Assembly (NCBI RefSeq): GCF_900100315.1 | Contig: NZ_FNFF01000014.1 | Coordinates: 1 to 64,000, forward strand | Direction of reading: 5' to 3' | Length of the DNA stretch: 64,000 nucleotides | From: Streptomyces indicus | Lineage (GTDB): Bacteria; Actinomycetota; Actinomycetes; Streptomycetales; Streptomycetaceae | Part shown: one piece after another, positions 17,212 through 60,975 of the stretch | How the letters are laid out: each line of letters opens with the position of its first letter | Numbering within the stretch: the first letter of the stretch is position 1 | Position numbers and translations under genes: made by a program | Notes under the pieces: generated by a model | Told to the model about the DNA's origin: nothing | The model's database searches: none | What the model saw: the letters and a program-made list of their open reading frames with translations, nothing else

Positions 17212-17354
17212 GGGGTGCACTCCCTCGCTCGGCTCCGGGCCGTGCGGGAGGGGTGCGTGTACGGGAGCGCGCGGCGGGGCGTGACGCTCCACGTCCACCG
17301 GCCCATTCCGCGAGGCCCGGACGTCTTCGGCACCCGGGCCGGTCGGCGCGGGCG

Positions 17355-17465
17355 CACCGTCGGCAGGTCATCGGACTCGACGCGGCCCGGGAGAGGGCCA
17401 TGTCATACCGTTGCGGGACAGTTCCGGATTCGCACCGGATTCCCCTGCGGCGACAGCGAGGTTGA
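17355..17465 (-). ncRNA. Cobalamin riboswitch of nrdAB
   Basis: Reading the minus strand, the conserved core GGGGAATCCGGTGCGAATCC is followed by CTGTCCCGCAACGGTATG. After a GC-rich stem comes the B12-box-like AGTCCGATGACCTGCC (17362-17377). These are the hallmarks of the AdoCbl riboswitch. It lies 150-250 nt before nrdA. A B12 riboswitch on nrdABS is established in S. coelicolor. Confidence 0.9.
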
Positions 17466-17469
17466 GCAT

Positions 17470-17511
17470 ACATGTTGTGGGTGGCCGCCGACGCCAGGCC
17501 CACATGTTGTG
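17470..17511 (-). promoter_or_regulatory. Paired NrdR boxes in the nrdA promoter
   Basis: Two copies of ACATGTTGTG (17470-17479 and 17502-17511) are 32 bp apart, about three helical turns. On the coding strand each reads CACAACATGT, which fits the NrdR-box pattern. The spacing is that expected for cooperative NrdR binding over the promoter. Confidence 0.78.
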
Positions 17512-37751: not shown

Positions 37752-37825
37752 TAGCGGGGACAGGATTTGAACCTGCGACCTCTGGGTTATGAGCCCAGCG
37801 AGCTACCGAGCTGCTCCACCCCGCG
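37752..37825 (-). tRNA. tRNA-iMet (CAT), copy 1
   Basis: Cloverleaf of 74 nt without encoded CCA. The anticodon loop is CTCATAA. The unpaired position 1-72 (C1-U72) and three consecutive G-C pairs (GGG/CCC) in the anticodon stem mark it as initiator. It is identical to the copy at 40291-40364. Confidence 0.96.
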
Positions 37826-40290: not shown

Positions 40291-40364
40291 TAGCGGGGAC
40301 AGGATTTGAACCTGCGACCTCTGGGTTATGAGCCCAGCGAGCTACCGAGCTGCTCCACCCCGCG
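40291..40364 (-). tRNA. tRNA-iMet (CAT), copy 2
   Basis: 74-nt initiator tRNA identical to copy 1, again followed by a GAGGCCCGGAT-type terminator. Confidence 0.96.
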
Positions 40365-56945: not shown

Positions 56946-57284
56946 TCAGTGCATGACCGCCATCGCGAGGGCGCGGCGGGCGCGGAGCGAGGCACGCTCC
57001 GCGCGGCGCTGCATCCGGCGCGCGGCCACGAGGCGCACGGCCTCGCGCTCGGCGTCGGCCTCGCGCAGTCGCTCGTGCATGTGTGCACGGGCCAGGGCTT
57101 CAGGTTGGAGTTGCATTTCGCGGGTCCTGTTCTGGCGTGACTCGATCACGCCGGTGTGGGAGAAGTCGGTGGTGGCTGCGGAGCCGGACATCGGCTCGGT
57201 GGTGGACGGCTTCATGGGGGCCTGCTTCATGGGGTCGTGCGTCAGAGGGCGGTCGATGGTTCCGAGGATTCCGGCGGTGCTCAT
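56946..57284 (-). CDS. Unknown protein translationally coupled to wblC
   Basis: Protein of 112 residues whose ATG overlaps the wblC stop (ATGA). The N-terminal half is polar with Met-Lys-Pro repeats. The C-terminal half is a long Arg/Ala-rich helix (LARAHMHERLREADAERE, RRMQRRAERASLRARRALA) likely to bind nucleic acid, ribosome or membrane. No family recognised. Coupling implies expression together with WblC under antibiotic stress. Confidence 0.7.
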   Translation of the reverse strand: MSTAGILGTIDRPLTHDPMKQAPMKPSTTEPMSGSAATTDFSHTGVIESRQNRTREMQLQPEALARAHMHERLREADAEREAVRLVAARRMQRRAERASLRARRALAMAVMH

Positions 57285-57646
57285 GCGACGACCGGGTTCT
57301 TGCGCGGGCGGCCACGGGGCCGCTTGCGGGCGACGACCACACCCTGGACGAACAGCTCGCCACCCCAGACGCCCCAGGGCTCGCGCCGCTCCTTGGCGCC
57401 GGCGAGGCAGGCCTCGACCAGCGGGCAGGTACGGCAGAGGGACTTGGCGTACTCGACGTCCGCCGGCGACTCGGCGAAGAAGACCTCCGGGTCGTACGAA
57501 CGGCAGGGGACGGGCACGCCGAGGTTCTCGATGGCGTCGTCGAGCGCGGTGAGCGCGGTGAGGGGAGTCAAGGTGTTCTCCTGAAGGCCGGGCGGGGGGT
57601 ACGTCTCTGAAGTGGGCACTGACGGTGCGTGCGTTTCGATGGGCAC
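57281..57646 (-). CDS. wblC: WhiB7-type regulator WblC
   Basis: Iron-sulfur transcription factor that induces intrinsic resistance to ribosome-targeting antibiotics. In the 121 residues the cluster cysteines are 48, 71, 74 and 80, followed by GVWGG at 92-96 and the AT-hook RGRP at 111-114 that separates WhiB7/WblC from other Wbl proteins. The GTG at 57646 has GAGG 12 nt upstream. A leader hairpin at 57762-57796 could attenuate transcription. Confidence 0.93.
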   Translation of the reverse strand: MPIETHAPSVPTSETYPPPGLQENTLTPLTALTALDDAIENLGVPVPCRSYDPEVFFAESPADVEYAKSLCRTCPLVEACLAGAKERREPWGVWGGELFVQGVVVARKRPRGRPRKNPVVA

Positions 57647-57761
57647 GGTGTCTGTTGTCCTCGTCTGGTTGTTCCGGCCTGTTGGCCGGGTGGCGGCTGC
57701 TACCAGTTACTGCTGTCCGGTGGCCCCTTCGGCTTCGTCCGTCCTGTCGGGGACAAACGAA

Positions 57762-57796
57762 AGGGCCGCGGATCCCGGTTGGGGTTCCGCGGCCCT
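57762..57796 (-). terminator. Intrinsic terminator/attenuator in the wblC leader
   Basis: An 11-bp stem AGGGCCGCGGA/TCCGCGGCCCT with a 13-nt loop. On the minus strand it is followed by TTTCGTTTGT, so it is a true U-rich intrinsic terminator, rare in this genome. It lies 115 nt before wblC and after the 119-codon ORF. Attenuation is known for whiB7/wblC leaders. Confidence 0.75.
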
Positions 57797-57819
57797 GAAG
57801 GCGCCGGCCTGATCGCTGA

Positions 57820-58179
57820 TCAGGCTGGATCACTCCAGGGTTCGAGCCCGCGGAAGGCCCACATGTGCTGCGTCGTCGTCTGCTTCCGGAATCCGGCACC
57901 GGCCGCCGCAAAGGCATAGGCCTGCGCCTGTGCCACTACTGCTGCTTCCAGTGCCTTGGTCGGTCGCTCATTGCCGCCATTGCTGCCGAGGAGACGCTCA
58001 CCGGAAAGCAGCGAGACGGAATCCACGGAGGCAATCGGGGCAATGGAGGCAGGGGCGGCCAGCAGACCGGCGCGAACGCCGGACACACCGGTGCCCTGGA
58101 CCGAGATACCGAGCGGGCAGGTGGCGACGACCGAGCGGTCAACGTCGGTCATTTTGGTGCGGTTGATGATGCTGATCAC
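57820..58179 (-). CDS. Unknown ORF in the wblC leader
   Basis: 119 codons from a GTG at 58179 with AGGAGG 9 nt upstream; the frame is open to a GTG at 58266 (148 codons). Contains MTDVDRSVVATCPLGISVQG and AAVVAQAQAYAFAAAGAGF; no family recognised. Codon third positions are less GC-rich than in neighbouring genes. It lies between a WhiB7-like promoter and the wblC attenuator. It could be an independent gene or a regulatory leader ORF. Confidence 0.6.
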   Translation of the reverse strand: MISIINRTKMTDVDRSVVATCPLGISVQGTGVSGVRAGLLAAPASIAPIASVDSVSLLSGERLLGSNGGNERPTKALEAAVVAQAQAYAFAAAGAGFRKQTTTQHMWAFRGLEPWSDPA

Positions 58180-58317
58180 TGGACTCGCCTCCTCTCGGCG
58201 TCTCGGGACCGATTGTGTGGTGACACACAGCCGGTCGCTGATGTTCAAGGTCTTCAAGTACAACACGGAATCAGGAGCTCCAGGAAGAGCCCGCAGCGCC
58301 CGTCTCCGTGCTTGAAG

Positions 58318-58357
58318 AACCTATGGGTCTTCGTCGGGCGCGCGCAAACTATTTTTT
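58318..58357 (-). promoter_or_regulatory. WhiB7-like promoter
   Basis: On the minus strand an AT tract AAAAAATAG lies directly upstream of -35 TTGCGC (58342-58347). After 18 nt comes -10 TAGGTT (58318-58323). An AT-rich tract abutting the -35 is the known signature of WhiB7/WblC-bound promoters. Confidence 0.6.
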
Positions 58358-58370
58358 CGACGAGTTTCCG

Positions 58371-60566
58371 TCAGCTGCTCTCGTCTTCCTCCACAACTTC
58401 CGTCACAGGCGTCTCACCTGCGCAAAGAGCGAGGACGTCGGCGCCGAAGCGCTCAAGTTTTCTTCTGCCGACGCCGGGGATGCGCGCGAGCGCGTGCGCG
58501 TCCTCCGGAACGTTCTCCGCGATCGCTATGAGCGTCTTGTCCGTGAACACGCAGTATGCGGGCTGGCCGATCCCGCGGGCGGCCTCGGCCCGCCACTCGC
58601 GCAGCCGCTCGTAGAGCCCTTCGTCCATGTCGGACGGGCAGTCCTCGCAGCGCATCAGCTTCAGCTCGCCCGCGTCGGTGAGCGTGCGGCCGCAGACGCG
58701 GCAGTGCACCGGGCCGCGGGGCTTGCGGGCGGGACCGCGGACACCGCCGCGCTCCACCGAGGAGCCGCCGGAGGACCCGATCCTGCGCACTCCGCCGCCC
58801 GAGCCGGGCCGCAGCCCGTCGAGGAAGCTGCTGGGCCGCCGGTTCGCGCGGCCGCCCGGCGAGCGCGAGAGCGCCCACGACAGGGACAGGTGGCGGCGGG
58901 CGCGCGTGACGCCGACATAGAGCAGCCGGCGCTCCTCCTCGATCTGCTCGTCGGTGGTCGCGTACGCGATGGGGAGCATGCCCTCGGTCAGGCCGACCAG
59001 GAACACCGCGTCCCACTCCAGGCCCTTGGCCGCGTGCAGCGAGGCGAGGGTGACGCCCTGGACGGTGGGGGCGTGCTGGGCGGCGGCCCGCTCGTCGAGC
59101 TCGGCGACCAGGTCGGAGAGGGTGGCCTCGGGCTTGGCGGCGGCGAAGTCCTCGGCGAGGCGGACGAGCGCGGCGAGGGATTCCCAGCGGTCGCGGACGG
59201 CGCCGGAGCCCGCCGGCGCCTGGGTGGTCCAGCCCTTCGTGGACAGCACCGCGCGCACCTGCGAGGGCAGGTCCACGGCGTCGTCGAGCAGCGCGTCATT
59301 GCCCCCGAAGCGGGCCGCTCCGCGCAGGGCGGCGCCCGCCTCGCGCACTTCCTGGCGCTCGAAGAAGCGCTCGGCGCCGCGCAGCTGGTAGGGGATGGCG
59401 GCGTCCGCGAGCGCCTGTTCGTAGAGCTCGGACTGCCCGTTCGTACGGAACAGGACGGCGATCTCGCTCGCCGGGACGCCCTCGTCGAGCAGGCCGCGGA
59501 TCCTGCGGGCGGTGCGCTCGGCCTCGGTGGGCTCGTCGCCGTACTCGGTGTAGACCGGCTCGGGTCCGGGCTCGCGCTGCGAGACCAGTTCGAGGCGGTG
59601 CTCGGCGGCGCGGCCCTTCGCGGCGGCGAGCAGCCCGTTGGCGAGATGGACCACCTGGGGGGTCGAGCGGTAGTCGCGGATGAGCTTGACGACGGTGGCG
59701 TGCGGATGGCGCGTACGGAAGTTGAGCAGGTGGTCGGGGGTCGCGCCGGTGAACGAGTAGATCGTCTGGCTCGCGTCGCCCACCACGCACAGGCTGTCGC
59801 GCTCGCCCAGCCACAGGTCGAGCAGGCGCTGCTGGAGCGGGCTGACGTCCTGGTACTCGTCCACGACGAAGTGCTGGTACTGGGAGCGGACCTGCTCGGC
59901 GATGTCGTAGCGGTCCTGGAGGATCGCGACCGTGAGCAGCAGCACGTCCTCGAAGTCGATGACGCCGCGCTCCTGCTTGAGCTGCTCGTAGTGCGTGTAG
60001 ATGCGGGAGATCTCGGCCGGGTCGCGCGGGGCGTCGCGGCCCGCCTTCACCACGGCCGCCGGGTAGTCCTCGGAGACGGTCTGGGTGACCTTGCACCACT
60101 CGATCTCGCCGGTCACGTCCCGCAGTTCGCCCCGGTCGAGGCGGATACGGCAGCGGGCTGCGGCCTCGGCGACCAGCTGGGCCTTGCGCTCGACGAGCCG
60201 GGGCATGGCGCCGCCGACGGCTTTCGGCCAGAAGTACTGGAGCTGGCGCAGAGCCGCGGAGTGGAAGGTGCGGGCCTGGACTCCGGTCGCGCCGAGCTGC
60301 CTGAGCCGCCCGCGCATCTCGCCCGCCGCGCGGTTGGTGAACGTGACGGCGAGGACGCTGGCCGGCTGGAGGATCCCGGCCCTGACCCCGTACGCGATCC
60401 GGTGCGTGATGGCGCGCGTCTTGCCCGTGCCGGCGCCCGCGAGGACGCACACCGGCCCGTGCAGGGCGGTGGCGACCGCGCGCTGCTCGGGGTCGAGCCC
60501 GTCGAGCACGGCGTCGGCGGTTCCTGGGACGTCCGGGAACAGCGGGGAAGGCGATGCAGCTGTCAC
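58371..60566 (-). CDS. uvrD2: ATP-dependent DNA helicase UvrD2
   Basis: Superfamily 1 3'-5' helicase, 731 residues. Walker A is GAGTGKT (44-50), with motif II VVDEYQDVSPLQ, motif III VGDASQTIYSFTGA and motif VI YVGVTRARRHL. Near the C-terminus lies a tetracysteine zinc site (CRVCGRTL, CEDC) and then an HRDC domain (IPGVGRRKLERFG), the actinobacterial UvrD2 layout. The GTG at 60566 is chosen by similarity; the ribosome site is weak. Divergent from mycoredoxin. Confidence 0.93.
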   Translation of the reverse strand: MTAASPSPLFPDVPGTADAVLDGLDPEQRAVATALHGPVCVLAGAGTGKTRAITHRIAYGVRAGILQPASVLAVTFTNRAAGEMRGRLRQLGATGVQARTFHSAALRQLQYFWPKAVGGAMPRLVERKAQLVAEAAARCRIRLDRGELRDVTGEIEWCKVTQTVSEDYPAAVVKAGRDAPRDPAEISRIYTHYEQLKQERGVIDFEDVLLLTVAILQDRYDIAEQVRSQYQHFVVDEYQDVSPLQQRLLDLWLGERDSLCVVGDASQTIYSFTGATPDHLLNFRTRHPHATVVKLIRDYRSTPQVVHLANGLLAAAKGRAAEHRLELVSQREPGPEPVYTEYGDEPTEAERTARRIRGLLDEGVPASEIAVLFRTNGQSELYEQALADAAIPYQLRGAERFFERQEVREAGAALRGAARFGGNDALLDDAVDLPSQVRAVLSTKGWTTQAPAGSGAVRDRWESLAALVRLAEDFAAAKPEATLSDLVAELDERAAAQHAPTVQGVTLASLHAAKGLEWDAVFLVGLTEGMLPIAYATTDEQIEEERRLLYVGVTRARRHLSLSWALSRSPGGRANRRPSSFLDGLRPGSGGGVRRIGSSGGSSVERGGVRGPARKPRGPVHCRVCGRTLTDAGELKLMRCEDCPSDMDEGLYERLREWRAEAARGIGQPAYCVFTDKTLIAIAENVPEDAHALARIPGVGRRKLERFGADVLALCAGETPVTEVVEEDESS

Positions 60567-60605
60567 CCCGCCATGCTGCCAGGTCGTACGGGCTGCCCGT
60601 GCCGG

Positions 60606-60614
60606 TTGTCCACA
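60606..60614. promoter_or_regulatory. DnaA-box match
   Basis: TTGTCCACA, a perfect match to the Streptomyces DnaA box, in the uvrD2/mycoredoxin promoter region. A second perfect match (reverse) is at 53753-53761 in the YgjP/ThiF promoter region. Confidence 0.4.
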
Positions 60615-60653
60615 GGGGTCACGTATTGGTCGCACAAATGCGCGAACCTTTGC

Positions 60654-60680
60654 GGGAATGGCCGCCGCCTGACGTACGTT
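60654..60680 (+). promoter_or_regulatory. SigR-dependent promoter of mycoredoxin
   Basis: GGGAAT (60654-60659), 18 nt, GTT (60678-60680): a perfect SigR consensus 52 bp before the mycoredoxin start. Confidence 0.88.
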
Positions 60681-60732
60681 CTCCACAGGTGCGAGCACAC
60701 ACGCACTGGGACTGCTAAGGAGCGCGAGAGAC

Positions 60733-60975
60733 ATGCCGGGCACTGTGACGATGTACAGCACCACGTGGTGCGGCTACTGCCAGCGGCTGAAGAAGCAGCT
60801 GGAGCGCGAGGGCATCGCGTACAAGGAGATCAACATCGAGCAGGACCCGGAGTCCGCGGCGTTCGTCGAGAAGGCGAACGGGGGCAACCAGACGGTGCCG
60901 ACCGTGCTCTTCGAGGACGGCTCTACGCTGACGAACCCGTCGCTGGCCCAGGTCAAGCAGAAGATCGGCGCCTGA
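60733..60975 (+). CDS. Mycoredoxin (glutaredoxin-like, CGYC)
   Basis: Protein of 80 residues with the redox pair Cys13 and Cys16 in WCGYC and the cis-Pro region QTVPTV. In actinobacteria it reduces mycothiol mixed disulfides. It has a perfect SigR promoter, so it belongs to the thiol-stress regulon whose regulators sit 35 kb away in this window. AAGGAGCG lies 10 nt before the ATG. Confidence 0.93.
   Translation: MPGTVTMYSTTWCGYCQRLKKQLEREGIAYKEINIEQDPESAAFVEKANGGNQTVPTVLFEDGSTLTNPSLAQVKQKIGA

Follow-up and report, generated by a model that had tools for sequence, protein, structure and literature searches.

What is the 119-codon open reading frame (ORF) that lies between uvrD2 and wblC in Streptomyces indicus? 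An earlier note on this DNA had described an AT-tract/TTGCGC/TAGGTT promoter after uvrD2, an ORF of unknown family with an AGGAGG site, and an intrinsic terminator with a U tail before wblC. It had proposed that the regulator is controlled by ribosomes that stall on a genuine protein gene, in a design different from attenuation by a short leader ORF. We examined the locus in the window, i.e. the whole analysed stretch of 64,000 nucleotides, and compared it with related genomes.

Identity and layout of the leader

We are highly confident that the leader is the wblC (whiB7) upstream ORF (uORF) attenuator in its Streptomyces form. Attenuation of this gene by a uORF is stated in PMC11550727, PMC12421871, PMC7157823 and PMC13393426. 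As reported from Lee, Lee & Roe 2022 in PMC11550727, PMC12421871 and PMC13393426, translation of the uORF favours the terminator and its disruption the antiterminator, with antibiotics and amino-acid starvation as inducers; induction of read-through into the orthologue by translation inhibitors or starvation is described in PMC11550727 and PMC12421871. A 2018 review mentions, citing Yoo et al. 2016, an extremely long wblC 5' UTR containing a small-protein ORF (PMC6282962). Due to these attenuation papers and this review, both the way in which the attenuator works and the length of its uORF in Streptomyces have to be regarded as already known. The leader shares with the attenuator of Lee, Lee & Roe (2022, Mol Microbiol 117:179), as summarised in PMC11550727, the gene, the WblC-type promoter, the uORF, the Rho-independent terminator and the antiterminator logic, and no difference of kind from that summary was found. 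Those of its defining features that can be read from sequence were all located: the orthologue, the promoter motif, a translatable uORF preceded by a Shine-Dalgarno (SD) sequence, the Rho-independent terminator and a mutually exclusive antiterminator.

On the minus strand, uvrD2 (which ends at 58371) is followed by the promoter, the 119-codon uORF, the terminator and wblC, and the last four were all present in 80/80 sampled Streptomyces species. The leader sits directly upstream of the wblC/whiB7 orthologue, which was found in 60/60 genomes of the order; the Whib domain of its product was detected with an E value of 1.7e-14. The features are as follows:

58371..60764, minus strand: uvrD2 helicase gene, the upstream neighbour (ORF list; gene name from sequence)
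58351..58356, minus strand: WblC/WhiB7-type AT-rich box AAAAAT (motif match, 80/80 species)
58342..58347, minus strand: -35 element TTGCGC (conserved in 80 Streptomyces)
58318..58323, minus strand: -10 element TAGGTT, 18-nt spacer to the -35 (motif match, conserved)
58264..58310, minus strand: 5' UTR stem with strong covariation (RNAalifold and shuffle test)
58188..58193, minus strand: SD sequence of the uORF, AGGAGG, with predicted pairing to codons 17-19
57820..58179, minus strand: uORF of 119 codons, GTG start at 58179, TGA stop (80/80 Streptomyces)
57895..57955, minus strand: hairpin within the uORF at about codons 75-95, base GGCACTGG/CCGGTGCC (RNAalifold and shuffle test)
57833..57861, minus strand: 5' half of the antiterminator, TGGG, TTCCGCGG and CCCTGGAG (codons WAFRGLEPWS; pairing analysis)
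57807..57825, minus strand: stop-codon hairpin GCCTGATC-AGC-GATCAGGC, nested within the antiterminator (compensatory changes in 4/8 pairs)
57780..57800, minus strand: 3' half of the antiterminator, CTTCAGGGCCGCGGAACCCCA, overlapping the 5' arm of the terminator (pairing analysis)
57754..57796, minus strand: intrinsic terminator (57796-57762) with T-rich tail TTCGTTTG (80/80 species)
57281..57646, minus strand: wblC, WhiB7 orthologue (Whib domain and weak AT-hook match)

wblC might alternatively start at the TTG at 57571, which is preceded by AGGAG at a distance of six bases; the 25 codons ahead of this TTG are nevertheless conserved. Elsewhere, the window contains a cobalamin riboswitch (17345-17507, minus strand; Rfam RF00174, 45.9 bits) and two tRNA genes of equal Rfam score about 2.5 kb apart (37752-37825 and 40291-40364, minus strand).

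Promoter and 5' UTR

The promoter described in the earlier note could be confirmed on the minus strand at 58356-58318, where the box AAAAAT is followed by AGT (N3), TTGCGC, 18 nt and TAGGTT. The published WblC consensus is GAAAWY-N3-TKGMNN (-35) and TANNNT (-10) (PMC7157823), and the box of Streptomyces indicus has one mismatch to its GAAAWY part. Upstream regions of the uORF were searched for RAAAWY-N3-TKGMNN-N16-19-TANNNT, in which A or G is allowed at the first box position; the pattern was present in 80/80 Streptomyces vs 0/1,600 base-shuffled upstream regions. AAAAAT or GAAAAT followed by AGT-TTGCGC was found in 25/25 Streptomyces promoters inspected. As a motif match, this fits autoregulation by WblC, which is already published. 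The transcript is expected to start at about 58311-58310, i.e. 7-8 bp below the -10 element (PMC7157823).

The stem in the 5' UTR has 47 double-change cells vs a shuffled mean of 13.9, and 0/300 shuffles were as high; here and below, RNAalifold was run on the whole leader, and the covariation shuffles ignore kinship among species.

The uORF in Streptomyces

The GTG at 58179 begins eight bases after AGGAGG, and AGGAGGCG at this SD site is nearly invariant among Streptomyces. By sequence, the uORF was recovered in 36/36 same-genus relatives of a first set; translated searches found it upstream of wblC in 80/80 distinct Streptomyces genomes, and it is also present in 80 named Streptomyces records. 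Its length across the 80 Streptomyces ranges from 90 to 126 codons (median 108), with a middle part that varies in both sequence and length. Recognisable amino-acid motifs are KMTDRSVVS, GTGLSG and ERPTKALEA, and almost no variation is seen in the C-terminal fifteen codons (MWAFRGxEPWSDPA-stop). Several families with otherwise unrelated uORFs share a GTG[LMV]S-like motif, located at 58091-58079 in the middle of the uORF. Searches for a similar leader on plasmids yielded none, and a search of the leader against Rfam at gathering and permissive thresholds gave no relevant family.

Terminator and antiterminator

The terminator noted earlier was likewise found, with arms AGGGCCGCGGAACCCC and GGGATCCGCGGCCCT at 57796-57762 followed by TTCGTTTG, in 80/80 Streptomyces. 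It was missed by a simple terminator scan, probably because its stem has an internal mismatch.

The 5' arm of this terminator can pair with the last codons of the uORF instead, so that antiterminator and terminator are mutually exclusive. The partner of TGGG plus TTCCGCGG, in the W A F R G codons, is CCGCGGAACCCCA, and that of CCCTGGAG, in the P W S codons, is CTTCAGGG; together they enclose the stop-codon hairpin. The register is constant at 42-44 nt before the stop in 75/80 Streptomyces, and pairing falls to about half or less when the partner is slid out of register. On the 80-species alignment, 97.2% of the antiterminator is paired, with 13 double-change cells vs 1.7 in shuffles (0/500 as high). 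Within the genus this covariation comes mainly from the stop-codon hairpin, in which both sides change in 4/8 pairs (CG to UA, GC to AU); most other pairs never vary in Streptomyces. In one species (L016), compensating changes are found in both arms of the terminator and at the matching base of the uORF, at the cost of an F to S exchange. With these data, promoter, uORF, terminator and mutually exclusive pairing, together with their conservation, are established at the level of sequence.

Comparison across the class

Above whiB7 orthologues, the order SD, uORF, stop, 14-41 nt and terminator recurs across 32 family groups of the class. The median uORF length is 85 codons, ahead of the same kind of terminator, whose commonest type is AGGCCGCGGAACCC..GGGATCCGCGGCCT. 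In sister families, the uORF sequence is unrelated to that of Streptomyces. A different, Streptomyces-specific long-ORF design was rejected, as almost all of the sampled family groups have long uORFs. The different design proposed in the earlier note, with ribosomes stalling on a real gene for a protein, is not supported: Streptomyces uORFs regularly have 90-126 codons, and because this is the standard arrangement there, the long uORF is no new design. Attenuation by a leader ORF as such is well supported by the anatomy, but is already published.

A diverged terminator arm in other families is accompanied by a diverged uORF end. The arm CACGGATTC of L154 is matched by GAATCCGTG in the uORF and the arm GGGCCTCAAATCCAC of L166, from a small-genome lineage, by GTGGTTGAGGCC; L144 and L130/133/134 have likewise diverged in both parts together. 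Pairing of the uORF end with its own arm was better than that of codon-shuffled uORF ends in 42/63 loci (p <=0.05), with a Fisher p of 2e-16 on group medians that treats the 32 family groups as independent, and stronger than with foreign arms (median -28.5 vs -23.7 kcal/mol). Family groups f6, f18 and f28 were mostly no better than shuffles; we infer that f6 is mycobacterial. In the automatic search, a few loci were without terminator or without ORF (e.g. L081, L082, L152, L153, L167, L168, L175), although some of these elements can be seen in the other leader comparisons. In L166, L167 and L168, from actinobacteria of 1.2-2.2 Mb, the whiB7 leader is seemingly kept with an entirely different terminator sequence.

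Two known systems resemble the leader. In the mycobacterial whiB7 leader (PMC4128351, PMC13236596), an SD sequence and a uORF are also followed by a terminator, and ribosome stalling induces the gene; the likely mycobacterial relatives in our sample differ in the length of the uORF, which has only about 50-70 codons, and in their terminators, which are of the GGCCACGG type. In the ARE ABCF attenuators of Streptomyces, a drug-stalled ribosome on a uORF also switches the terminator to an antiterminator, but these uORFs have 3-9 codons and stalling is sensed at the start codon (PMC12421871), whereas the wblC uORF has 119 codons.

The near-invariant C-terminal peptide might suggest that drugs are sensed by a nascent-peptide arrest sequence in the uORF instead of by general ribosome slowing. 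Proline pairs can slow ribosomes, and the endings WSPPV or xxPPV recur in other families. However, the C-terminal motif is accounted for by base pairing. The codon after the C-terminal TGG in other families is AGN in 19/23 cases while the amino acid changes (S, R), and the serines are 15/15 AGY and never TCN; by sequence, this fits pairing of GGAG with CTCC before the terminator rather than a choice of amino acid. General slowing also fits the published observation that drugs of many classes, as well as amino-acid starvation, act as inducers, and we consider an arrest peptide improbable.

Behaviour of the proposed switch

According to the attenuator model, the WblC-responsive promoter would give rise to a leader RNA of about 660 nt. 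Under free translation, a ribosome on the last dozen codons would cover the 5' half of the antiterminator while RNA polymerase passes; the terminator would then form and transcription would end before wblC. If translation is slowed or blocked upstream, or never started, the last codons could pair with the 5' arm of the terminator around the stop-codon hairpin, and with the antiterminator formed, the polymerase would read into wblC, whose product would then boost its own promoter. That the switch responds to antibiotics and to starvation for amino acids, and how ribosome and polymerase are timed, is taken from published work or inferred.

Static folding was used to model this switch. In prefix transcripts that end before the 3' arm of the terminator, the antiterminator is part of the minimum-energy fold in 71/80 species. 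With a ribosome placed 25 codons before the stop it is still found in 60/80 prefix folds, and with a ribosome over the FRG codons in 0/80. The simple footprint model is not clean at the stop codon, since with a ribosome there, a portion of the arm remains paired to the uORF in 52/80 prefix folds. For the full-length leader, two folds of -109.5 and -108.4 were obtained, a gap of 1.1 kcal/mol. The near-equal folds and the modelled ribosome effects are consistent with a kinetic switch.

The uORF as a probable structured RNA

Conserved positions of the uORF often use a single codon, including CGA (79/79), GTA (54/56), TAT (67/71) and GAT (69/71), which count as rare because the genome is GC-rich. 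The majority codon at conserved positions accounts for 97% in the C-terminal and 94% in the N-terminal block vs 87% in wblC. Codons ending in A or T make up 24.8% of the uORF vs 8.6% in wblC, with the uORF higher in 80/80 species, and reach 34% in its last 50 codons. Amino-acid constraint with freer synonymous sites, as expected of a functional protein gene, was not seen in this comparison of codon usage. The ORF that had looked conserved in the earlier note is indeed conserved in 80/80, but the constraint on its conserved ends acts at synonymous sites and through RNA pairing.

The base of the hairpin within the uORF has 7 double-change cells vs 0.6 in shuffles (0/300 as high), although it is weaker by the tool count, and the start-codon helix has 5 vs 1.6. 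On the 80-species alignment, the SD helix, the ERP-closing helix and a local FRG/PWS hairpin are well conserved without covariation and are thus given as predictions. The helix predicted at 58199-58108 is conserved and would hide the SD sequence and start region of the uORF in its early codons, the start-codon part covarying and the SD part being invariant; it may represent a possible second control layer at uORF initiation.

Since it lacks a known family, is predicted to be unfolded, conserves rare codons and contains covarying hairpins, the uORF looks like a translated structured RNA and not like a working protein, and RNA structure inside the coding sequence is the best explanation of its length and conservation. 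Going further, we tentatively raise the possibility that the uORF is long as a coding sequence because it is a structured RNA of several hundred nucleotides, made up of the covarying 5' stem, the helix hiding SD and start, the rare-codon hairpin and the antiterminator.

A true gene for a small protein that shares a transcript with wblC, with a product of its own function while its translation also controls wblC, would account for the presence of the uORF in all sampled Streptomyces, its strong SD sequence and its recognisable amino-acid motifs. SCO5189, which adjoins wblC in S. coelicolor and is up-regulated together with it in a dasR mutant (PMC4398421), may be the counterpart. We nevertheless think such a gene very unlikely: Pfam and NCBIfam contain no family match to the ORF (58179-57820), in agreement with the earlier note; AlphaFold with 40 homologues gave no fold (pLDDT 52.6, pTM 0.14; predicted unstructured); the length of 90-126 codons with a variable middle gives way to unrelated sequence in sister families; and the conserved blocks are constrained at synonymous sites, rare codons included.

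A separate promoter below the terminator as the main driver of wblC, with the leader in a minor role, is hardly credible. No supporting point was found. A weak scan, which also misses the WblC-type promoter, detected no sigma-70-type site in 57400-58900, a range that includes the stretch between hairpin and wblC considered in the earlier note. In 80/80 Streptomyces, the WblC-type promoter is located upstream of the uORF.

Implications

The attenuator governs the master regulator through which actinobacteria are intrinsically resistant to antibiotics that target the ribosome. Our additions are a base-level map of the antiterminator, the class-wide co-variation and the evidence for constraint on the RNA, parts of which may already be contained in Lee, Lee & Roe 2022. 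What is gained is a testable map of the uORF bases that form the antiterminator and of the covarying stop-codon hairpin. The uORF should not be annotated as a functional protein. Some 30 actinobacterial family groups retain the three-part design, while their uORF and terminator sequences change together. If the uORF is indeed a structured RNA of several hundred nucleotides, the flow of ribosomes would be sensed when translation starts and over the full length of the ORF, not just by a stall near its end, and this could account for the response to many unrelated drugs.
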